33,830 bases of DNA from a virus, in the IMG/VR virus record IMGVR_UViG_3300006793_000127, positions 1 through 33,830 of that record; one strand, 5' to 3'. The position numbers and the translations under genes are program-made. Of this stretch, positions 2,863-27,555 are shown in pieces. The notes under the pieces are model-generated. The model was not told where the DNA came from and did not search any database. It saw only the letters and a program-made list of their open reading frames with translations. Numbering within the stretch: position 1 is the first letter of the stretch; each line of letters opens with the position of its first letter.

Positions 2863-3833
2863 GCGAACACGAACACGACATCCAATACCAAAATATTGCC
2901 GATGTAGAACTTAAAAACGGCAAACCAACTGAAAGTTGGATGAAAGATTGGTGTCAAGAGGCTCGAACGAATAAGTTCTTCGAGTTTTGTCGTGCCTATG
3001 ACGTACGTCAAGATTTCCTACTTAAAAATAACTATCAACAATTCTCTCATCGCTTACATTGGCACGAGTGTCCGTTTGTCGATGAGATGAAGAAAGAAAC
3101 CAATCGTGTCAAGTTAATCGAAGGCTGTGTTCTGTTCTCATTTAGTAACGAGCATTGGCAGACGTTCAGAGCGTGGAAAGATCATGGCTATGATGGCATG
3201 AAGGTACGCTTCTCGAATTATCGCCATGCACGTTCTGATCTGTTCCAGATATACTATCCAAAGGATACGAAGGTAAAAAACTGGTTGATCGATACACCAA
3301 AGCATGCAGCTATTGAGATCGACAAGTTATTAGAGAATGCAAAACGTCCGTTGACTATGATGGAGTTTGCTAAGAAGATGAACATCATTATGGTAAGAGA
3401 TTTTGGTTTTCGTAATGCCATGTATCCATCAAAGAATACAGCTCGTCATATTGCAATGACACACCCTAAACTAGTTGATCCTGACTCGTTCCTACATGGT
3501 GGCACAGGATACTTCGACGGTTTGTCACAGATCTTTGATTGTCCACATCTTATGAGCAAGTCTAAGTATGATGTCGATGAGGATGGCCAGTACGTCCCTA
3601 TGAATAAATGGGCTGAGATGCAAGTACAACATATGGATTATTTAAAGAATCACCCGAATAATCCTATACACACTCATCAGTACCTTAATTTAGAAGATAA
3701 GCTATGTATGCATTATAAGTTCATGTCAATGAAACTCGGCGAGAAGAAACAAACGAAGATGATCCCATATGATTGGGTTTATCCACAAAACTGGTCACTC
3801 AAAACAAATAGGTACGATCGTGGCGCACAATAA
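2841..3833 (+). CDS. Unrecognised 330-aa protein of the modification-like cluster
   Basis: A soluble protein with many His, Trp and Asp residues. Conserved-looking segments are RDFGFRNAMYPSKNTARHIA (around residues 184-203) and FLHGGTGYFDGLSQIF (around 217-232). The glycine-rich HGGTG element followed by an acidic residue could be part of an active site. No family is recognised with confidence; an amino-acid or other group transferase acting on modified DNA bases is a hypothesis from context only. It starts inside the end of the preceding gene (ATG 2841) and is followed by a PLP-dependent enzyme. Confidence 0.72.
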   Translation: MSLTHFLGEHEHDIQYQNIADVELKNGKPTESWMKDWCQEARTNKFFEFCRAYDVRQDFLLKNNYQQFSHRLHWHECPFVDEMKKETNRVKLIEGCVLFSFSNEHWQTFRAWKDHGYDGMKVRFSNYRHARSDLFQIYYPKDTKVKNWLIDTPKHAAIEIDKLLENAKRPLTMMEFAKKMNIIMVRDFGFRNAMYPSKNTARHIAMTHPKLVDPDSFLHGGTGYFDGLSQIFDCPHLMSKSKYDVDEDGQYVPMNKWAEMQVQHMDYLKNHPNNPIHTHQYLNLEDKLCMHYKFMSMKLGEKKQTKMIPYDWVYPQNWSLKTNRYDRGAQ

Positions 3834-3837
3834 TCAT

Positions 3838-4695
3838 GTGATTGATGGAGTAAATAAGGATGTCGGCATCTTCGGATACGAGGCCTCTAAAGATTACTAC
3901 TTGGAGATGTGTGATGGATGGACACCGTACAATGATGACCCAGTTGTCAAAGTACATGACGGAGTGCGAGTTGTCAGAGACGACCTTATACTTGGAACCA
4001 AAACTCGAGCTGGTGATCTTCTTGCTGCTCGTTGCCCGTCTGATACCATGGTTTATTGTCAGCCTCGGACTGGTCTTGCCGGCGTATCTCTACTTGACGT
4101 AGCTAAACATCATGGCAAGAAGGTAAAGTTGTTCATGCCTTCTTCTAAACGAGTGTCACTGCATCAAGCTTGTTGTATCGAGCGTGGCGCTGATGTAGAA
4201 TTTCATCGCATAGCAGCGATGCCCAACCTCAATAAAAAGGCGAAAGAATATGCTGAACGAACTGGCACGTACTTCATCCCACTTGGACTCAAACACGAGC
4301 TCGCCACTGCAGGAATTGTCTATGCGGCTAGTAAGATTCCTGAGCCCGAAGTCGTATACGTCGCTATCTCTACTGGTGTTCTTACAAGAGCTCTTCAGAT
4401 TGCATGGCCCAATGCTACCTTCCGCTGCGTTGCTGTTGCTCGGAACCTTAAAGCAGGCGAGTTAGGTAGAGGAGAGGTCATATCGGAGCCTCTACAATTT
4501 ACACAGTCAGAAAAGAAAGACAACTTACCTCCGTTCCCTTCTATCGACACATATGACGGTAAAGTGTGGAAATACATACCTAAAAATACCAGTCAGGACA
4601 TACTTTTCTGGAATGTAGGTACAGAACCTGTTTTACAAGATGAGACGATTTATGATAGAATAGATTCATATCGTCAGTGGGAGAAAGATGTGTAA
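3838..4695 (+). CDS. Fold-type II PLP-dependent enzyme (ACC deaminase / tryptophan synthase beta-like)
   Basis: The motif VRVVRDDLILGTKTR matches the N-terminal substrate/PLP-lysine segment of the D-cysteine desulfhydrase/ACC deaminase group (RDDL...K), with Lys55 (counting from GTG 3838) the likely Schiff-base lysine. Further on, LGLKHELATAGIVYA and VVYVAISTGVLTRAL (near residues 165-215) fit the glycine/serine-rich phosphate-binding parts of this fold. At about 285 aa it is somewhat shorter than typical members. The start is uncertain: GTG 3838 follows the upstream stop by 4 nt with no clear Shine-Dalgarno, and ATG 3769 would overlap by 65 nt. Within a base-modification-like cluster, it might process an amino acid attached to a base or make a small amine. 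That role is inference. Confidence 0.68.
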   Translation: MIDGVNKDVGIFGYEASKDYYLEMCDGWTPYNDDPVVKVHDGVRVVRDDLILGTKTRAGDLLAARCPSDTMVYCQPRTGLAGVSLLDVAKHHGKKVKLFMPSSKRVSLHQACCIERGADVEFHRIAAMPNLNKKAKEYAERTGTYFIPLGLKHELATAGIVYAASKIPEPEVVYVAISTGVLTRALQIAWPNATFRCVAVARNLKAGELGRGEVISEPLQFTQSEKKDNLPPFPSIDTYDGKVWKYIPKNTSQDILFWNVGTEPVLQDETIYDRIDSYRQWEKDV

Positions 4696-11473: not shown

Positions 11474-12045
11474 GAGACAAGTTAATTCTAACTGACTGCG
11501 ACGGAGTCATGCTCGATTGGACTTATGCGTTCGATCAGTGGATGAAGCGGCATGGTTATCGTATTCAAAATTATAATGAATACGACATCGGTAAAAAATA
11601 TGATGTAGGTTTTGCTGAGAAAAAGAAACTTACTCGTATGTTCAATGAGTCTGCTTCTATCCGTAAGATTCCGCCTCTCCGAGATGCCATCAAGTATATT
11701 CGCAAACTACACGAAGAGCATGGTTATATCTTTCATGTTATCACATCATTGAGTGATGACGAGTATGCCCAACATCTCAGGACAAAAAACCTTTGTGAGA
11801 CGTTTGGTCATACAGTCTTTGAGAAATACGTGTACCTCGACTGCGGCGCTGATAAGGATGAAGCGCTAGCTAAGTATGAAGGTAGCGGTTGCTATTGGCT
11901 AGAAGACAAACCAGAGAATGCACTCGCTGGTCAAAATGTAGGATTGAATAGTTTACTGATTGCGCATGGTCATAATGCGAACAATGAAAATGCATTTGTA
12001 CGTGTACAAAACTGGAAAGAGATTTACGAGATTATTGTTGGATGA
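11470..12045 (+). CDS. HAD-superfamily 5'(3')-deoxyribonucleotidase-like phosphatase
   Basis: A 191-aa protein. LILTDCDGVMLDW holds the HAD catalytic DxD (Asp9, Asp11). HVITSLSDDEY is motif II (Thr/Ser), the lysine of motif III lies in the CGADKDEALAKY region, and YWLEDKPENALAG is motif IV. This order matches the NT5C-like deoxyribonucleotidases, which dephosphorylate deoxynucleoside monophosphates. It may remove unwanted dNMPs or serve base modification. It overlaps the previous gene (ATGA) and the next gene by 4 nt. Confidence 0.7.
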   Translation: MRDKLILTDCDGVMLDWTYAFDQWMKRHGYRIQNYNEYDIGKKYDVGFAEKKKLTRMFNESASIRKIPPLRDAIKYIRKLHEEHGYIFHVITSLSDDEYAQHLRTKNLCETFGHTVFEKYVYLDCGADKDEALAKYEGSGCYWLEDKPENALAGQNVGLNSLLIAHGHNANNENAFVRVQNWKEIYEIIVG

Positions 12046-13493
12046 TTATCGTTGATAAAAGATTACCTAACGCTTATAATCTTTTGTATCAAGGCAGTAT
12101 CGAAGAAGTACACGATAAGCGAATAGCACAATATTACAAAGACTTTAGGCATGTAAGAGTCGTGCCATATTCAGCCGTGTGTGAACGCGTTCAAAATCAT
12201 CGTAGTTCTGAAACCGTTTTTGGCGAACATCTAACTAGTTTCTTTCATGATCCCGGCACTATAGATTACGACAATTTTCATTCAGCAATGGGTCATAGTA
12301 AAACGGCTCATTACCGACGAATTGTTAAAATGCATTGGCTTGTTAATGACATGTTAGAAAATGGATTGAACGACCCAATGACTGCTGTTGTTTATCCAAA
12401 CATGCACGAAAAAATAGAATGGAATGTGACTATACATCCAGGTTCATTTAGACAGCATGCTTTAAAATTGACTAACACAGATTTAGATGTCATCGTTTTC
12501 GACGCATTTGAATTATTTTATGATTATCCTAAAGTAACACTCAAAGAAATATTTAATCACTATGGTGTTATTGATAAAATAGACATTAATATGCTTCATC
12601 ATGACACTAATTTAATGACTCCACAAATGTTTAATATTACCGAAGGTAGTAGACATACTAGTATGGGTAAAAATACTAGGAATTGGGAGAAAAAAATTAG
12701 AGACATGTTTGATAAACCGGTTAATATCTTTATTGGTTATGATAGCACTCACGGAGATGCATCAGAAGTTTGCAAAAATTCAATCCTTAAAAAAATGAAT
12801 AATGCAAATATCAATATACAAATGTTGGATGTTTCAAAGATTGAAGGATGGACAAGAGAGTATAAGAATCAATCAACAGAATTTTCTTATACTAGATTTT
12901 TAGTACCGTACTTATCAAACTACGAAGGTATTAGTATATTCTGTGATGATGATTTTATTTTTACAGAAAATATACTCAACACAATATGGTTTTTACGTCC
13001 AGATCAGGCAGTAGCTTGTGTACAGCATGACTTTGAACACAAATATGATACTAAGTTTACAAATGCCAAAGATGTGTGGTATAATAGAAAACTCTGGTCA
13101 AGCTTGATGGTATTTAATAACTCTCATGAAGATTGTAAAAAACTAACATTAGAGACTGTACAAGAAGCTACTGGAAAATACTTACATCAATTCGAATGGA
13201 CAAATAACATTGGTAGTTTACCTCATAAATGGAATTGGTGTGAAGGATATAGTTCAATTGCAGAAATACATCACGTGTGTGGTATGCATTGGACAAGAGG
13301 CGGTCCATGGATAGAAGGTATGGATTGTAGTGAAATAGAGGGTATAGAAATATATAATGCTTATAAGTATCGTGATACCCCAAATTGGCAAAAAGCTATA
13401 CTTGATATGTCAGAATATTATGACATAGAATGGACAGATGATGATACGGGCACTGAAAAGAAGTGCTCTGAGATAAATAGAGATGTTCGTTGA
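12042..13493 (+). CDS. Two-domain protein with GT8-like glycosyltransferase domain
   Basis: A 483-aa protein. The N-terminal half (about 1-220) is of unknown type. The C-terminal half begins VNIFIGYDSTHGDASEV, continues FSYTRFLVPYL and ISIFCDDDFIFTENI (DDD metal/nucleotide-sugar site near residue 305), and ends with HWTRGGPW, the pattern of GT8-like glycosyltransferases. The gene is visibly more AT-rich than the nucleotide genes before it, like the other surface-glycan-type genes here. Modification of host or virion glycans is likely. Its 3' end overlaps the late promoter motif (13472-13479) and the likely start of the tmRNA transcript. Confidence 0.7.
   Translation: MIIVDKRLPNAYNLLYQGSIEEVHDKRIAQYYKDFRHVRVVPYSAVCERVQNHRSSETVFGEHLTSFFHDPGTIDYDNFHSAMGHSKTAHYRRIVKMHWLVNDMLENGLNDPMTAVVYPNMHEKIEWNVTIHPGSFRQHALKLTNTDLDVIVFDAFELFYDYPKVTLKEIFNHYGVIDKIDINMLHHDTNLMTPQMFNITEGSRHTSMGKNTRNWEKKIRDMFDKPVNIFIGYDSTHGDASEVCKNSILKKMNNANINIQMLDVSKIEGWTREYKNQSTEFSYTRFLVPYLSNYEGISIFCDDDFIFTENILNTIWFLRPDQAVACVQHDFEHKYDTKFTNAKDVWYNRKLWSSLMVFNNSHEDCKKLTLETVQEATGKYLHQFEWTNNIGSLPHKWNWCEGYSSIAEIHHVCGMHWTRGGPWIEGMDCSEIEGIEIYNAYKYRDTPNWQKAILDMSEYYDIEWTDDDTGTEKKCSEINRDVR
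13472..13479 (+). promoter_or_regulatory. T4-type late promoter (GATAAATA) for the tmRNA
   Basis: GATAAATA fits the NATAAATA late promoter reported for marine T4-like phages and differs from the T4 consensus TATAAATA by one base. Initiation 6-8 nt downstream would place the 5' end near 13485-13487, just ahead of the acceptor piece of the tmRNA. This is the only promoter-like element seen near the gene. It lies within the end of the upstream CDS. Confidence 0.5.
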
Positions 13494-13544
13494 AGTTTGT
13501 ACTAAGAAGTTTGGACGCGGGTTCGACTCCCGCCGCCTCCACCA
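13485..13544 (+). ncRNA. ssrA: tmRNA acceptor piece (3' half), upstream in a permuted gene
   Basis: The tail contains a T-arm GCGGG-TTCGACT-CCCGC (13517-13533), acceptor strand CGCCTCC (13534-13540), discriminator A and encoded CCA (13542-13544). This matches the 3' end of tmRNA rather than a tRNA: the GGACGCGGGTTC-type sequence is tmRNA-like, and no 5' tRNA half precedes it. The acceptor strand pairs in full with GGGGGCG at 13695-13701, downstream, including a G3-U70 wobble, the alanine identity element. Bases 13495-13515 (GTTTGTACTAAGAAGTTTGG region) can form the 3' strand of P2. The 5' end is estimated from the late promoter. The gene is circularly permuted: acceptor piece first, coding piece second. 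Confidence 0.88.
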
Positions 13545-13694
13545 AAAGGAGTTTTTATGCGCATACAAATGAAGGGTGGTGATGAGTATGATGCTCTTTC
13601 TCGTAAAAGCAAGGGTCTCCATCGATGGAGATCTGGAGAAAGAAAGGCACTCAAGCGCAAATACAACAAACGAGTTCGAAAGACTTCTTTTGTT
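13545..13694 (+). other. Intervening segment of the permuted tmRNA precursor
   Basis: This 150-nt segment separates the CCA end from the 5' G of the coding piece. It should be removed by RNase P (cut before 13695) and 3' processing after 13544. It contains a Shine-Dalgarno and a 55-codon ORF (13557-13724) that runs into the coding piece. Confidence 0.7.
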
Positions 13695-13724
13695 GGGGGC
13701 GTTCTGGATTCGACAGGCAACTGA
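13557..13724 (+). CDS. 55-aa very basic small protein nested in the tmRNA intervening segment
   Basis: ATG 13557 has a strong Shine-Dalgarno (AAAGGAG) 6 nt upstream. The protein begins MRIQMKGGDEYDALSRKSKG and continues WRSGERKALKRKYNKRVRK, a very basic Arg/Lys-rich segment. Small proteins of this type (D-E-Y-D-A-L then W-R-S-G-x-R-K-x-x-K-R) resemble conserved small ORFs of marine T4-like phages. Its last 10 codons overlap the acceptor stem and TTCTGGATTCGAC element of the tmRNA coding piece, so tmRNA processing would cut its message. Nucleic-acid binding is inferred from charge only. Confidence 0.6.
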   Translation: MRIQMKGGDEYDALSRKSKGLHRWRSGERKALKRKYNKRVRKTSFVGGVLDSTGN

Positions 13725-13867
13725 AAGCAAATGGAGAACCGTCCATGAACGCTGACGTAAAACGGTGGTTCAAAACTATAGTTGCCAATGACGACAACTA
13801 CTACGGTGATTACGCACTAGCTGCATAATCCTGCGGGGCGGCCACTGCCTTGTAATCCAAGTGTGGC
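13695..13867 (+). ncRNA. ssrA: tmRNA coding piece (5' half) with tag ANDDNYYGDYALAA
   Basis: It begins GGGGGCG (13695-13701), the 5' acceptor strand, then TTCTGGATTCGAC (13702-13714), the conserved tmRNA 5' signature. GAACC/GGTTC (13736-13740 with 13767-13771) and ACCGT/ACGGT can form a structure just before the tag, where PK1 lies in other tmRNAs. ATAGTT precedes the resume codon GCC (13784). The frame then reads ANDDNYYGDYALAA and stops at TAA 13826-13828. The ALAA ending is the usual protease-recognition end of ssrA tags. A hairpin and T-run follow. It would be alanylated, bind SmpB (not encoded in this window) and rescue stalled ribosomes. Confidence 0.9.
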
Positions 13868-13876
13868 ATTTTTTTT
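13841..13876 (+). terminator. Rho-independent terminator after the tmRNA
   Basis: GCCAC (13841-13845) pairs with GTGGC (13863-13867), with an inner CTTG/CAAG helix and TAATC loop. It is followed by A and eight T's (13869-13876). It may double as the 3' structure of the tmRNA coding piece. Confidence 0.7.
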
Positions 13877-13898: not shown

Positions 13899-14387
13899 AT
13901 GTATAGGCTATTACTTGTTATAATGTGTATGGTTTGGTCAGTAGATGTATCAGCTGATGAATGGCATTCGAAAGAGATACAATGTCTTGCTAAGAATGTT
14001 TATTTTGAAGCGCGCGGTGAATCGCTGACAGGCAAAATAGCCGTTGCCAATGTCACGCTGAATCGTGTTCGTTCGAACAAATTCCCTGATTCGGTATGTG
14101 CTGTAATTACTCAAGCTAAAACATATAAAAACTGGAAAGGCAACATTGTGCCTCGACGGAATCAATGTCAGTTTAGCTGGTTTTGTGATGGCAAACCAGA
14201 TAATCCAAGTGATATAAGTATGTATAGAGAAAGTTTACGAGTAGCCGAAGTTGTATATAATGGCTATCGCGATGTAACCGAGGGTTCATTGTTTTATCAT
14301 AACGATCAAGTGAAACCCTATTGGGCTGCAACTATGATGAAAACAAAGATCATAGGCGCACATCATTTTTATAGGGACAGTTATTAA
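13899..14387 (+). CDS. Exported SleB-like cell-wall hydrolase (Hydrolase_2)
   Basis: A 162-aa protein. It has a signal-peptide-like N-terminus (LLLVIMCMVWSVDVSADE), then CLAKNVYFEARGES (Glu likely catalytic), AVANVTLNRVRSNKFPDSVC and CQFSWFCDGKP, the conserved order of the SleB/CwlJ-type hydrolase domain. It would cleave peptidoglycan glycan strands in the periplasm. Signal-arrest release, as in some endolysins, is possible. The ATG has a strong AAGGAGGA Shine-Dalgarno. It stands upstream of a metzincin lipoprotein and near other envelope proteins. A separate T4-lysozyme-like endolysin is encoded on the minus strand. Confidence 0.8.
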   Translation: MYRLLLVIMCMVWSVDVSADEWHSKEIQCLAKNVYFEARGESLTGKIAVANVTLNRVRSNKFPDSVCAVITQAKTYKNWKGNIVPRRNQCQFSWFCDGKPDNPSDISMYRESLRVAEVVYNGYRDVTEGSLFYHNDQVKPYWAATMMKTKIIGAHHFYRDSY

Positions 14388-15982
14388 TGAAAAAAATCTT
14401 GTTAACACTGCTTTTACTTTCAGGTTGTGGTGGCGGCGGTGGCGGTACTGAAGATCAACAAACGGTGGTAACACCAACTCCAACACCGACACCGACAAAT
14501 CCTGATGCTGGTACTGTTTTGGAAACATCGTGTGATGGCACGACTCTAATCGAAACCATTGCCGATGGTAATGGTGGTTCGACTCAAGAACAAACAACAA
14601 ACTCAGAACAATGCGGATACGTTGCTCCTCCGACAGAGGGCACGATACTTGATGAGTTCTGTGAAGATACAACCAAAGTAACAATTACCGCTGATGGTAT
14701 TGGCGGCGAAGTTCGTTCTGAAGAAGAAAAATCTGAGGATTGTGGATACGTTGGACCGCCTGCAGAGGGTACACCTGATGGTGATTCATACTGTGCTTAT
14801 ATCCTCGAGGACGATGATGAAAAATTAGAAATAGTGGCAACAAATGTTAATCACTTACTACGACAAGATCGATTGCAAGACTATCATGATGGTGAAGGCG
14901 GAATCTATACCGACCGCCTCGTGCACATCGACGAAACTTGTTTTGTTCAAATGGACCAACCAGCAGATTGTCCAACTACTCCCACTGCTACTGGTGATTC
15001 GAGATATGATTATATTACATGTGATGGCATAAAATCAAAATCGTCAGTAAGTTTCCCGTTCGACAGTAACAATATGGATCTAGCTATCATTGATATGCTG
15101 ATCGTATTTGATACTAATCTCACTGAGGAAGATCGTGATGGTATGACGGTTGAGGAATTTGTTGATAAACAAATATGGGACGCGAACCACATTTATCTTT
15201 CGTCGGCAACACAGACAGTATTTCGTGTTGCTGGTATTAAGATGGTAGATGTCGTCGCAGGTGACCTGTATCGTCAGTACGCTGCATTCTTCAATGGTCG
15301 TTATGAGTTTAATGGACTTGACGATTGGCAGCGCGAGTCAGGCGCTGACATTGCGTTCTTATTTAAGAAAAGACCCGAAGATGGAATTGCCTGTGGTGTT
15401 GCTAGTTTAGACGCCTCACGCGGTCTCGATAAATCTCGTGGTATCACTCAGTGTTTTCATAATAGCACTTTCCAATCAACATCCACCACGAGATATTACG
15501 AACGTGCACCCGAGACATTTGCACATGAGATTGGTCACTTGCTAGGTGCACAACATGTTTGGGAAGATGCCGATAGGCCTGGACTATTTGAATACTCATT
15601 TGGATACAATCTTCCAGGGTACAACCCTCAAGAGGACAATCCCGAATATACTGGAGCTTATGGTGGATATGGTACGATTATGTCCTATGCTGATAAAGCG
15701 ACCGGCGCATTTTCTAATTTTCGATTGAATTGCTATTGGCCAGAAGGTGCGGGATCATATGCTGGACAGAGTGTAACGATGGGCACAACAGGCGGTTGTT
15801 TCTGTAATGATCCACCTGAAGAACAACCTCCTCCCACAAATAACGCAGAGACTATTCAGAGAACAAGATATATAATGAGTCAACTGCATGAAAGTAACCA
15901 TAACATACAATTTTCGCCAGTGGGCAAAATGCGTATGGACGGTCTCTCGGTCGAAAACGATCCACACATTTGTTTATTTTAG
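14387..15982 (+). CDS. Secreted lipoprotein zinc metalloprotease (metzincin)
   Basis: A 531-aa protein. A short hydrophobic signal ends in lipobox LLSGC, followed by a glycine run and a TPTPTPT spacer. Two related repeats follow (GTVLETSCDGTTLIETIADG... and GTILDEFCEDTTKVTITADG..., each ending CGYV-PP-EGT). The protease core has HEIGHLLGAQH (380-390), the metzincin zinc site HExGHxxGxxH, and a Met-turn TIMSYAD with Met432. Many cysteines suggest disulfides. The protein would be anchored in an outer membrane or secreted. Its role may be host-envelope proteolysis during release or superinfection control; the substrate is unknown. It overlaps the hydrolase stop (TAATG). Confidence 0.82.
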   Translation: MKKILLTLLLLSGCGGGGGGTEDQQTVVTPTPTPTPTNPDAGTVLETSCDGTTLIETIADGNGGSTQEQTTNSEQCGYVAPPTEGTILDEFCEDTTKVTITADGIGGEVRSEEEKSEDCGYVGPPAEGTPDGDSYCAYILEDDDEKLEIVATNVNHLLRQDRLQDYHDGEGGIYTDRLVHIDETCFVQMDQPADCPTTPTATGDSRYDYITCDGIKSKSSVSFPFDSNNMDLAIIDMLIVFDTNLTEEDRDGMTVEEFVDKQIWDANHIYLSSATQTVFRVAGIKMVDVVAGDLYRQYAAFFNGRYEFNGLDDWQRESGADIAFLFKKRPEDGIACGVASLDASRGLDKSRGITQCFHNSTFQSTSTTRYYERAPETFAHEIGHLLGAQHVWEDADRPGLFEYSFGYNLPGYNPQEDNPEYTGAYGGYGTIMSYADKATGAFSNFRLNCYWPEGAGSYAGQSVTMGTTGGCFCNDPPEEQPPPTNNAETIQRTRYIMSQLHESNHNIQFSPVGKMRMDGLSVENDPHICLF

Positions 15983-16585: not shown

Positions 16586-16986
16586 AGTATTTTTTACTGT
16601 CAGTATTGTTGTTAGCTGGTTGTGGTCAAAATGATCCAGGTCTAGCAAAAAAAGTTTCACTTAATAAAGATCAACTTGCTGCAATCGAAAATCGCATCAC
16701 ACCATTTAGCGTAGTAATGGTAGATGGAGTTACAGCTGTTGTTGCTGTCGCTGCACTTCCTGGTGAGGCGAAGTATGCAGCGTGTGGTGCTTGTCATGGT
16801 GCAAACGGTGGAGGTGGTGTTGGACCTGCACTTGCCGGCCAAACAGTTGAATATATTGTTGGTCGACTGAATCAATATAAAGCAGGTGAGAAAGTCGGTA
16901 GTCAAAGCAACCTCATGTGGGGGCAAGCAGCTGGATTGTCTGATCAAGATATGACCGATCTCGCGGAGTATATTGTAACGCTATGA
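16582..16986 (+). CDS. Lipoprotein c-type cytochrome
   Basis: A 134-aa protein. The N-terminus MKYFLLSVLLLAGC is a lipoprotein signal, with Cys14 the likely lipid-bearing residue. The heme-binding motif CGACH is at 68-72 and is followed by GANGGGGVGPALAGQ. A candidate axial Met lies in NLMWGQAAGLSD, as in class I cytochromes c. It would be exported, receive heme from the host Ccm system and sit on the periplasmic face. It lies directly upstream of an alternative oxidase in an overlapping gene pair. It may carry electrons in the infected cell; the partner is not shown by the sequence. Confidence 0.85.
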   Translation: MKYFLLSVLLLAGCGQNDPGLAKKVSLNKDQLAAIENRITPFSVVMVDGVTAVVAVAALPGEAKYAACGACHGANGGGGVGPALAGQTVEYIVGRLNQYKAGEKVGSQSNLMWGQAAGLSDQDMTDLAEYIVTL

Positions 16987-17549
16987 GAGATTGGACAGCT
17001 AGATCTATGACGAAGTTCTTTCGGTTCTTCGCTGATACATTCTTTGCTAAGCGATATGGTCACAGAGCAGTTGTATTAGAAACAATTGCTGGTGTTCCTG
17101 GTATGGTTGCAGGCATGTTAATTCATCTGCGTAGTCTTCGTAAGATGGAACGTGGTAATGGTCGTATGATTCATCAGATGCTAGAAGAAGCAGAGAACGA
17201 GCGCAAGCATCTCATGTTCTTCATTGAGATCGCTCAGCCTAATCAGTTTGAGAGATTCCTCATTGTGATGGCTCAGTTTATCTTCTGGCATTTCTATCTT
17301 GTGTTCTATATCCTTGCACCAAATACAGCACATAAGATGATTGCATACTTTGAAGAAGAGGCAGTACGATCATATGATGAGTATATCAAACTTATCGAAG
17401 AAGGTAAAATCGAGAATGTACAGGCACCTCAACTTGCTATAGAATACTATATGCTCAATAAAGATGCAACGTTACTCGATATGGTCAAGTGTGTACGAGA
17501 TGATGAACGTAAGCATAGTCAAGTGAATCACAGAATTGCAGGTTTCTAA
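16983..17549 (+). CDS. aox: Alternative oxidase (AOX/PTOX family di-iron quinol oxidase)
   Basis: A 188-aa protein. RYGHRAVVLETIAGVPGM (Glu33), LEEAENERKHLMFFIEIAQP (Glu73, His76), EEEAVRSYDEY and VRDDERKHSQVNH give all six expected di-iron ligands, including two ExxH motifs, in the family order. The family is membrane-associated, oxidises quinol and reduces O2 to water without pumping protons. PTOX-type members are known from cyanophages; finding one here beside cytochrome c suggests a respiratory variant. It is a little shorter than cellular AOX at the N-terminus. It overlaps the cytochrome gene (ATGA-type) and the next small membrane gene by 1 nt. Confidence 0.92.
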   Translation: MRDWTARSMTKFFRFFADTFFAKRYGHRAVVLETIAGVPGMVAGMLIHLRSLRKMERGNGRMIHQMLEEAENERKHLMFFIEIAQPNQFERFLIVMAQFIFWHFYLVFYILAPNTAHKMIAYFEEEAVRSYDEYIKLIEEGKIENVQAPQLAIEYYMLNKDATLLDMVKCVRDDERKHSQVNHRIAGF

Positions 17550-20230: not shown

Positions 20231-20489
20231 ACAAGGTCGTGTAGTCATTGAAAAGAAGTCGAAGATGTTTGAACCTTCGGCTCCTTACTCTGTACCAAAA
20301 ACTAAACTCAAGAAAGGTGGTGTCCTGTATAAAGAGGGAGATAAGGTACATATATCATATACAGATGGAGAATATGAAGGTCGAATCATGAATATTCTCT
20401 CATCACAAATGATAGTGAGACTAGACGAGGACGATCCAAATAAGGATAAGTTCTTCTTCACAACTGGATTGAAGATTAAAAAATGTTAG
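20214..20489 (+). CDS. 91-aa basic small protein, unknown
   Basis: A lysine-rich N-terminus (MPRKPKQGRVVIEKKSKMF) precedes a small barrel-like part (GDKVHISYTDGEYEGRIMNI, MIVRLDED). AAGGA precedes the ATG. A KOW/SH3-like fold is possible. It overlaps both neighbours. Confidence 0.6.
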   Translation: MPRKPKQGRVVIEKKSKMFEPSAPYSVPKTKLKKGGVLYKEGDKVHISYTDGEYEGRIMNILSSQMIVRLDEDDPNKDKFFFTTGLKIKKC

Positions 20490-21040
20490 AAATGCCACTC
20501 TTTCCTACGATGTTCTTTGAGACCAAGATTGACGAAAACTTGGCTATATCAGTACTTGAAGAAATTAGATCAAAGCAATTTCAAATCGATACTGTAAGTG
20601 AAGCTACACAGATTATTCCAGTTAGTGATTACTCTACAGATTTTTGTCATACTATTCGCATTGATTCATTTTGGGATCATGTAGTACCACAGTTGCAAGA
20701 AGAATGGAGTAAGTTAAATAGGCAGATGGTTAATATTCATTCTTGGGTATCATGCTATACTGGACCGAATGGTCATCATCCATTACACAATCACAATATG
20801 GGTTATGATGGAAGATTACACTATTCTGCTATTTTGTATTTGACGCGTGTAGGATGTACAGATTTTTTCTCATTAGACGCTTCTGCGCAGAACCATCAAT
20901 ATAGTTATCCAAGTGGTATGGGACACATTTTGTTTTTTCCATCAATAATTCCTCATCAGTATAGATCTGAACACTTTGATGGTAATGCACGATATACACT
21001 GCCATTTAACTGTGAGCTTGCAAGTTTAACAAAAAATTAA
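20483..21040 (+). CDS. 2OG-Fe(II) oxygenase-like protein
   Basis: A 185-aa protein. The core NIHSWVSCYTGPNGHHPLHNHN gives the first metal-binding histidines, followed by SAILYLT, GHILFFPSIIPHQYRSE (distal His) and RYTLPFN (Arg for 2-oxoglutarate). This matches the phage 2OG-FeII oxygenase group with an H-x-H/D...H...R layout. Substrates in phages are mostly unknown; protein or nucleobase hydroxylation are both possible. The gene is more AT-rich than its upstream neighbours. Confidence 0.68.
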   Translation: MLEMPLFPTMFFETKIDENLAISVLEEIRSKQFQIDTVSEATQIIPVSDYSTDFCHTIRIDSFWDHVVPQLQEEWSKLNRQMVNIHSWVSCYTGPNGHHPLHNHNMGYDGRLHYSAILYLTRVGCTDFFSLDASAQNHQYSYPSGMGHILFFPSIIPHQYRSEHFDGNARYTLPFNCELASLTKN

Positions 21041-22717: not shown

Positions 22718-23173
22718 ATGGTTAGTAAAGCATTTTCTTTTCCACGTTCACATTTTATCGGGTTCGATCACATTTGGAATGATATCGCTCGTCTTTCAGA
22801 GATGTCAGACAACAAGTTATATCCTCCACATAATGTAGTCAAACAAGATGAAACGCATTTTTCAGTAGAATTGGCATTAGCTGGATACAGTAAAGACGAT
22901 CTCACAGTAGAAGTCAAAGACGGTATTCTAGTGGTGACTGGCGGTAAAACTGAGGGAGAACAGGAACGTGAGTATCTCCACCGTGGAATCTCTGCAAAGA
23001 AGTTCACGCGTACTTTCAGACTGTCCGAACACGTTGTTGTAGATGGAGCTGATTTTAAAGATGGTCTACTCGTTATCGACCTAAGAGTAGAAATCCCTGA
23101 AGAGAAGCGTCCTCGCACTGTCCAAATTGGTAAAACTACCAAAGGCAAAAAGCAACTTTTAACTGAGGACTGA
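22718..23173 (+). CDS. hsp20: Small heat-shock protein Hsp20 (alpha-crystallin domain)
   Basis: A 151-aa protein. It has the HSPA-like FIGFDHIWNDIARLSEM-type N-terminus (here FIGFDHIWN), then YPPHNVVKQDETHFSVELALAGYSKDDLTVEVKDGILVVTGG (alpha-crystallin domain) and YLHRGISAKKFTRTFRLSE. The C-terminal IEIPxxKRP anchor reads VEIPEEKRP. It would act as an ATP-independent holdase preventing aggregation of phage or host proteins. Hsp20 is common in marine T4-like phages. Expression from a late promoter with a structured leader is suggested. Confidence 0.95.
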   Translation: MVSKAFSFPRSHFIGFDHIWNDIARLSEMSDNKLYPPHNVVKQDETHFSVELALAGYSKDDLTVEVKDGILVVTGGKTEGEQEREYLHRGISAKKFTRTFRLSEHVVVDGADFKDGLLVIDLRVEIPEEKRPRTVQIGKTTKGKKQLLTED

Positions 23174-27165: not shown

Positions 27166-27555
27166 ATGGCATACTCAAAGGAAGTATTAGACCACTATGA
27201 TAACCCAAGAAACGTTGGAAAGCTTGATGGAACGGATGAAACCGTGGGAACAGGCTTGGTTGGCGCTCCGGCTTGCGGAGATGTCATGCAATTGCAAATC
27301 AGGGTTTCGCCCGACGGAATCATTGAAGACGCTAAATTCAAAACTTTTGGATGCGGATCCGCAATTGCATCAAGTTCTCTTCTCACAGAATGGGTCAAGG
27401 GTAAAAGCCTTGAGGAAGCTAATCAGATCAAGAACACTGAGCTCGCTCAAGAACTTTCGTTACCCCCGGTAAAAATCCATTGTAGTGTTCTCGCAGAAGA
27501 TGCAATCAAATCTGCGATCCTAGATTATAAAAATAAAAATAATTTAGGAGAATAA
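27166..27555 (+). CDS. iscU: IscU/NifU-type Fe-S cluster scaffold
   Basis: A 129-aa protein. The three cluster-ligand cysteines and the conserved Asp/His are in place: GAPACGDVM (Cys37, Asp39), FGCGSAIASSS (Cys63) and KIHCSVLAEDAI (His105, Cys106). The N-terminus YSKEVLDHYDNPRNVG is also typical. Length matches bacterial IscU. The LPPVK element needed for chaperone (HscA) recognition is intact (residues 99-103). It would assemble [2Fe-2S] clusters with the host IscS. It may support Fe-S enzymes during infection. Confidence 0.93.
   Translation: MAYSKEVLDHYDNPRNVGKLDGTDETVGTGLVGAPACGDVMQLQIRVSPDGIIEDAKFKTFGCGSAIASSSLLTEWVKGKSLEEANQIKNTELAQELSLPPVKIHCSVLAEDAIKSAILDYKNKNNLGE

Follow-up and report, generated by a model that had tools for sequence, protein, structure and literature searches.

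The spacer between the two pieces of a permuted tmRNA gene is usually regarded as waste that is removed from the precursor. Permuted tmRNAs encoded by phages are not in themselves new. A 2022 study counted 53 two-piece tmRNAs among phages, with marine or aquatic phages contributing 50, described the one in phage Melnitz, and suggested roles in infection (PMC9004378). In the 2025 tmRNA database (PMC11915505), the unique tmRNAs from phages number 79, counting every form. Methylophilales phage Melnitz (MZ577097; Kyanoviridae, T4-like) has a long spacer in its permuted tmRNA, while the marine Pelagibacter phage Mosig (MT647606) has a spacer of 44 nt with self-pairing ends. The closest bacterial system is the alphaproteobacterial permuted tmRNA (Rfam families RF01849 and RF04321). 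Spacers of bacterial permuted tmRNAs spanned 13 to 67 nt, with a median of 37 nt across 94 measured loci, a nonrandom sample drawn from a tag pattern and best-scoring matches. Frames of 30 to 61 codons occur at bacterial loci, mostly running through the tmRNA itself and forming no homologous family, and no gene comparable to the one described below was found in the measured spacers or in three longer bacterial spacers chosen by match span.

The locus compared here with these systems lies in a 33,830-base stretch of DNA (the window) that makes up the whole of IMG/VR virus record IMGVR_UViG_3300006793_000127, a linear fragment. The window is a piece of the genome of a T4-like marine bacteriophage. 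It encodes a T4-type replisome of DNA polymerase, sliding clamp, clamp loader, RegA, UvsX, and DnaB-type helicase, and its DNA polymerase is 48% identical to those of Synechococcus T4-like phages. On the plus strand, a gene for a 483-residue protein of no assigned function (12042 to 13493; phrog_28018) precedes the tmRNA, and its stop codon at 13491 to 13493, not noticed in an earlier note made from the window's letters alone, falls within the tmRNA acceptor piece. An endolysin-like gene follows (13899 to 14387, plus strand; phrog_938, 3.4e-23).

Positions 13485 to 13828 are a phage-encoded, circularly permuted two-piece tmRNA with alanine identity and a proteobacterial-type tag. A cmscan search of the window against all of Rfam 15 returned a single match, to RF04321 (tmRNA_permuted), which covers the full model (1 to 213) on the plus strand at 13485 to 13828 with 104 bits and an E value of 1.8e-19, against a curated cut-off of 47 bits. 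The window scored below the gathering cut-off of RF01849 (alpha_tmRNA), whereas one relative (L011) and the second and third lineages described below scored above it. ARAGORN independently called a permuted tmRNA starting at 13452, with its coding part at 333 to 377 of the gene (13784 to 13828) and the tag ANDDNYYGDYALAA. The earlier note had placed such a gene at 13472 to 13876; it was right about the phage copy and, given the 53 two-piece forms already counted in phages, only partly right in calling one unusual.

Gene order, acceptor pairing, and tag plan all follow the alphaproteobacterial form. The acceptor piece (13485 to 13544, plus strand, its start set by the RF04321 match) holds the T arm, the acceptor 3' strand CGCCTCC (13534 to 13540), A73, and an encoded CCA (13542 to 13544). 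A 150-nt spacer, expected to be removed in maturation, runs from the CCA to G1 (13545 to 13694, plus strand), and the coding piece, identified by both RF04321 and ARAGORN, extends from the acceptor 5' strand GGGGGCG (13695 to 13701) through the tag and its stop (13695 to 13828, plus strand). All seven acceptor pairs form, G3-U70 included, and all seven were kept in every phage and bacterial permuted tmRNA tabulated, with compensatory changes among relatives at pair 5 (GC/CG) and pair 6 (CG/TA/AT). The tag frame (13784 to 13828, plus strand) is open and consists of an alanine resume codon, GCC, the tag ANDDNYYGDYALAA with its hydrophobic end, and the stop TAA. Piece order, acceptor pairs, encoded CCA, and proteobacterial tag had each been read correctly in the earlier note. 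Its proposed terminator was not recovered: in the 3' tail of the coding piece (13829 to 13876, plus strand), where a terminator role is unconfirmed, a pattern scan found no intrinsic terminator, the fold was no more stable than those of shuffled sequences, and a T run is all that is evident.

An intact tmRNA in a phage could be a decayed or captured host gene, carried along by imprecise excision or as an ssrA attachment site and without function. End fragments of ssrA do occur in many temperate phages, and several matches in our searches lay at record ends and covered no more of the acceptor half than its 3' end. Against this origin, the window's match is full length, its tag and acceptor are intact, and no integrase was found among the PHROG matches of the window proteins scanned. 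In addition, 11 related contigs retain the gene in a constant position, ahead of the endolysin gene that they share with the window, and carry the tag ANDDNYYGDYALAA or ANDDSYYGDYALAA. This leaves a functionless host relic very improbable.

The earlier note had also raised a replaced or hijacked tag, a reading in which the phage tmRNA would take over ribosome rescue and its tag would alter the fate of host nascent proteins. A generic, degenerate version of the tag pattern matched no genome in a GTDB-based collection, which sets it apart from the tags of bacteria sampled there and is a point in favor of such hijacking; a looser pattern matched mainly Rhizobiales, Hyphomonadaceae, Parvularculaceae, and Stutzerimonas and thereby did not identify the host. 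However, the tag follows the ANDD...YALAA layout that is typical for proteolysis tags, and because it ends in the usual ...YALAA, the idea of a replaced or hijacked tag is unsupported. SmpB genes were absent from the window and from nine related viral records, several of which are fragments. The phage tmRNA would then have to rely on SmpB supplied by the host, which also speaks against a phage-directed takeover. We consider hijacking of this kind quite unlikely.

The most unusual feature of the locus, missed in the earlier note, is a protein gene nested in the spacer. The spacer reads AAGGAG-TTTTT-ATG, with the Shine-Dalgarno sequence (13546 to 13551, plus strand) 5 nt upstream of the ATG and within the paired helix of the spacer ends, and an open frame of 55 codons plus stop (13557 to 13724, plus strand; product MRIQMKGGDEYDALSRKSKGLHRWRSGERKALKRKYNKRVRKTSFVGGVLDSTGN) then passes through G1 and ends at a TGA (13722 to 13724) thirty nt into the tmRNA coding piece. 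Searches with the product matched the spacers of other permuted tmRNAs as well as free-standing genes. Nested homologs (family A) occupied the equivalent place in 11 IMG/VR contigs from three tmRNA lineages. Those contigs were collected with a pattern in which I-x-M-K-G-G-D comes no more than 40 nt after CTCCACCA, and all 11 contigs matching it carried permuted tmRNAs; a scan of IMG/VR with fixed tmRNA letters gave no match, its pattern probably being too strict. The window's own lineage has the tag ANDDNYYGDYALAA, the second has ANDDVYTLAA, ANDDIYALAA, or ANDDIYQLAA, and the third has ANDNFAPSGFALAA. Three divergent permuted tmRNAs with this last tag (L237, L350, and L352) were missed by ARAGORN and matched by both RF04321 and RF01849. 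All complete family A frames meet G1 in codon phase 0 and terminate at nt 28 to 45 of the coding piece. One of the 11 contigs, separately named and from another metagenome data set, shares 99.9% identity with the window across 5,808 bases, which makes an assembly fault an unlikely source of the nested arrangement. A spacer ATG in one relative (L012) was set aside as a nested start, as it had no Shine-Dalgarno sequence.

Conservation at the protein level supports the nested frame as a gene. When the window was compared with each of the other nested members, 51 to 75% of synonymous sites differed, against 11 to 29% of nonsynonymous sites, an excess that was significant against each member (Fisher p from 8e-4 to 4e-8). 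The free-standing homologs, found in tens of other phages, differ from the nested gene in having their own stop codons and no surrounding tmRNA; they adjoin genes for DNA polymerase, helicase, or thymidylate synthase, and several overlap the end of the DNA polymerase gene. A first alignment of the nested protein with its homologs contained 28 invariant residues. The protein has a weak match to phrog_16066 (3.7e-4), is basic, about 46 to 55 residues long, and had no match in Pfam. Its predicted structure has three helices at low confidence (pLDDT 64), too uncertain to be fit for a fold search. No cellular homolog was found in 385 alphaproteobacterial genomes with a profile that does match viral records, those matches standing in place of a separate positive control, and a tree of the 45-residue protein does not distinguish a single origin of nesting from repeated ones. 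A weak resemblance of the frame to Caulobacter giant phages (H81 to H86) was rejected as chance, since neither ARAGORN nor Rfam models identified a tmRNA in them.

The simplest alternative is that only the tmRNA matters and that the spacer frame is a chance product of constraint on RNA folding. A Shine-Dalgarno-led frame of this length arose in 1 to 4% of shuffled spacers, and for this reason conservation alone, and not the presence of a frame, carries the claim of a gene. Many close relatives have no such frame, and the window's frame partly overlaps both the helix and the tmRNA, as a chance frame might. Yet a chance frame would not have free-standing homologs with their own stops in tens of phages, changes concentrated at synonymous sites in this family and in the second spacer family described below, or recurrence across three tmRNA lineages, and we regard it as highly unlikely. 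Judged by these comparisons, the frame at 13557 to 13724 is most likely a real small-protein gene; it is under protein-level constraint and has homologs inside and outside tmRNA spacers. In the open-access literature, no earlier description of a conserved protein gene in a tmRNA spacer is apparent.

A second, unrelated frame was present in the cultured phage Melnitz. As in the window, the Melnitz spacer, at 142 nt, contains a Shine-Dalgarno-led frame, MFKWLSKTRLVVITRDYFRERNRKADAKIPKYLSG..., that enters the coding piece in phase 0. In contrast to the window, the encoded sequence is of another family, the tag is ANDNYVPVDYALAA, and a glutamine riboswitch lies just downstream. The deposited record annotates only 'SsrA' at this place, and the tmRNA passages of PMC9004378 make no mention of the frame. 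Relatives of the Melnitz frame (family B) were present in the tmRNA spacers of 18 IMG/VR contigs, all with RF04321 or RF01849 matches and again with an excess of synonymous change; because homology searches supplied the phage tmRNAs here and for family A, these counts do not give a frequency of nesting. The frame crosses G1 in phase 0 in 13 of the 18 contigs (L362 to L374), stops 9 nt before G1 in four (L376 to L379), and is shortened by a frameshift in one (L375). Because some members stop inside the spacer, a missing stop is not universal. One further spacer (L380) holds a possible third frame, MWIYKCDAGTYTEDSFFKLLYVIFSHRFSHLVKGEGFID, with its own stop, seen in one sequence and without a match in PHROGs or Pfam. 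The glutamine riboswitch (RF01739) was found just past the tmRNA end in Melnitz (L360, 6399 to 6447) and in L362 to L376, L378, and L382. Placed there, it would act on the gene that follows, which in Melnitz is the late-transcription coactivator, and not on the tmRNA, contrary to the published reading.

Spacers that differ in content share paired ends. In the window, the spacer ends together with the last two bases of the CCA pair into a helix of 14 bp, which lengthens the acceptor stem. Across 14 distinct phage spacers, the uninterrupted end helix averaged 12.5 bp, compared with 5.8 bp when spacer ends were swapped, and none of 100,000 permutations did as well. This comparison, a revised second version, used uninterrupted runs at registers of −6 to +6 and left out near-copies and three bacterial spacers; a first version with too narrow a register gave no signal. 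Since the ends pair in spacers that differ, the spacer sequence appears free to vary as long as its ends keep pairing. The 88-nt spacer of an unannotated permuted tmRNA in Erythrobacter phage vB_EliS-L02 (L384, 624 to 1032) also has self-pairing ends.

This freedom bears on whether the position of the nested gene has any meaning, as the spacer might be a cargo slot in which small genes or inert hairpins are exchanged by recombination between the tmRNA pieces, the nested gene being real and its location functionally meaningless. The window and one relative (L004) are 98% alike in the acceptor piece and 94.5% alike in the coding piece, with spacers of 150 and 20 nt, respectively. Relatives of the window's lineage without such a frame have spacers of 20, 55, 72, and 99 nt, and the tmRNA pieces of some are 93 to 98% identical to the window's, and tmRNA function thus does not depend on the nested gene. 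The short spacer of Mosig likewise has no frame of this kind. At least two unrelated frame families, and possibly the third in L380, occupy the slot, and every phage spacer keeps self-pairing ends of its own. A passive slot, however, would not require the frame to run through G1 in phase 0, as it does in four groups. We therefore treat a meaningless position as quite possible, if short of an even chance.

The explanation that we favor, and think likely, is a working permuted tmRNA of a T4-like marine phage whose spacer doubles as the mRNA of a small protein. The precursor would fold with its acceptor stem continued by the long spacer helix. Host RNase P would cut before G1 (13695), 3' processing would leave the CCA at 13544, and the two pieces would remain paired and be charged with alanine through G3-U70. 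By analogy with other members of its family, the charged tmRNA and host SmpB would rescue stalled ribosomes during infection, with ANDDNYYGDYALAA added as the degradation tag. Translation of the nested gene would take place on precursor RNA that has yet to be cut. Because its frame has no stop before G1, maturation would sever the frame from its stop, and each transcript molecule would yield either the full small protein or a mature tmRNA. An extension of this scheme, in which the cut at G1 is a switch that stalls ribosomes on the spacer so that the new tmRNA rescues them and tags the small protein for destruction, is doubtful; the loss of the stop may be no more than a side effect of tight packing, and the members whose frame has a stop of its own speak against any need for it. 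If such a switch did operate, maturation of the tmRNA would silence the gene nested within it and act as a gauge of rescue capacity.

The tmRNA spacers thus encode at least two conserved phage protein families with no relation to each other. One of these occurs in a cultured phage, and most of the frames extend across the processing site. If expressed as proposed, a single transcript would serve as mRNA for a protein and also as a ribosome-rescue RNA. This suggests that small genes may be hidden in the discarded segments of other processed RNA genes.

Elsewhere in the window, the endolysin-like gene is followed directly by a gene for a 531-residue reprolysin-like (M12B) metallopeptidase (14387 to 15982), with PF13583, PF13582, and PF13688 above their cut-offs; a tblastn search of 50,697 phage records found no counterpart. 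Host-like genes in the window encode a threonine dehydratase-like protein (3769 to 4695), a plastoquinol terminal oxidase-like protein (16983 to 17549), a 2OG-Fe(II) oxygenase (20483 to 21040), an Hsp20 (22718 to 23173), and a NifU-like protein (27166 to 27555).
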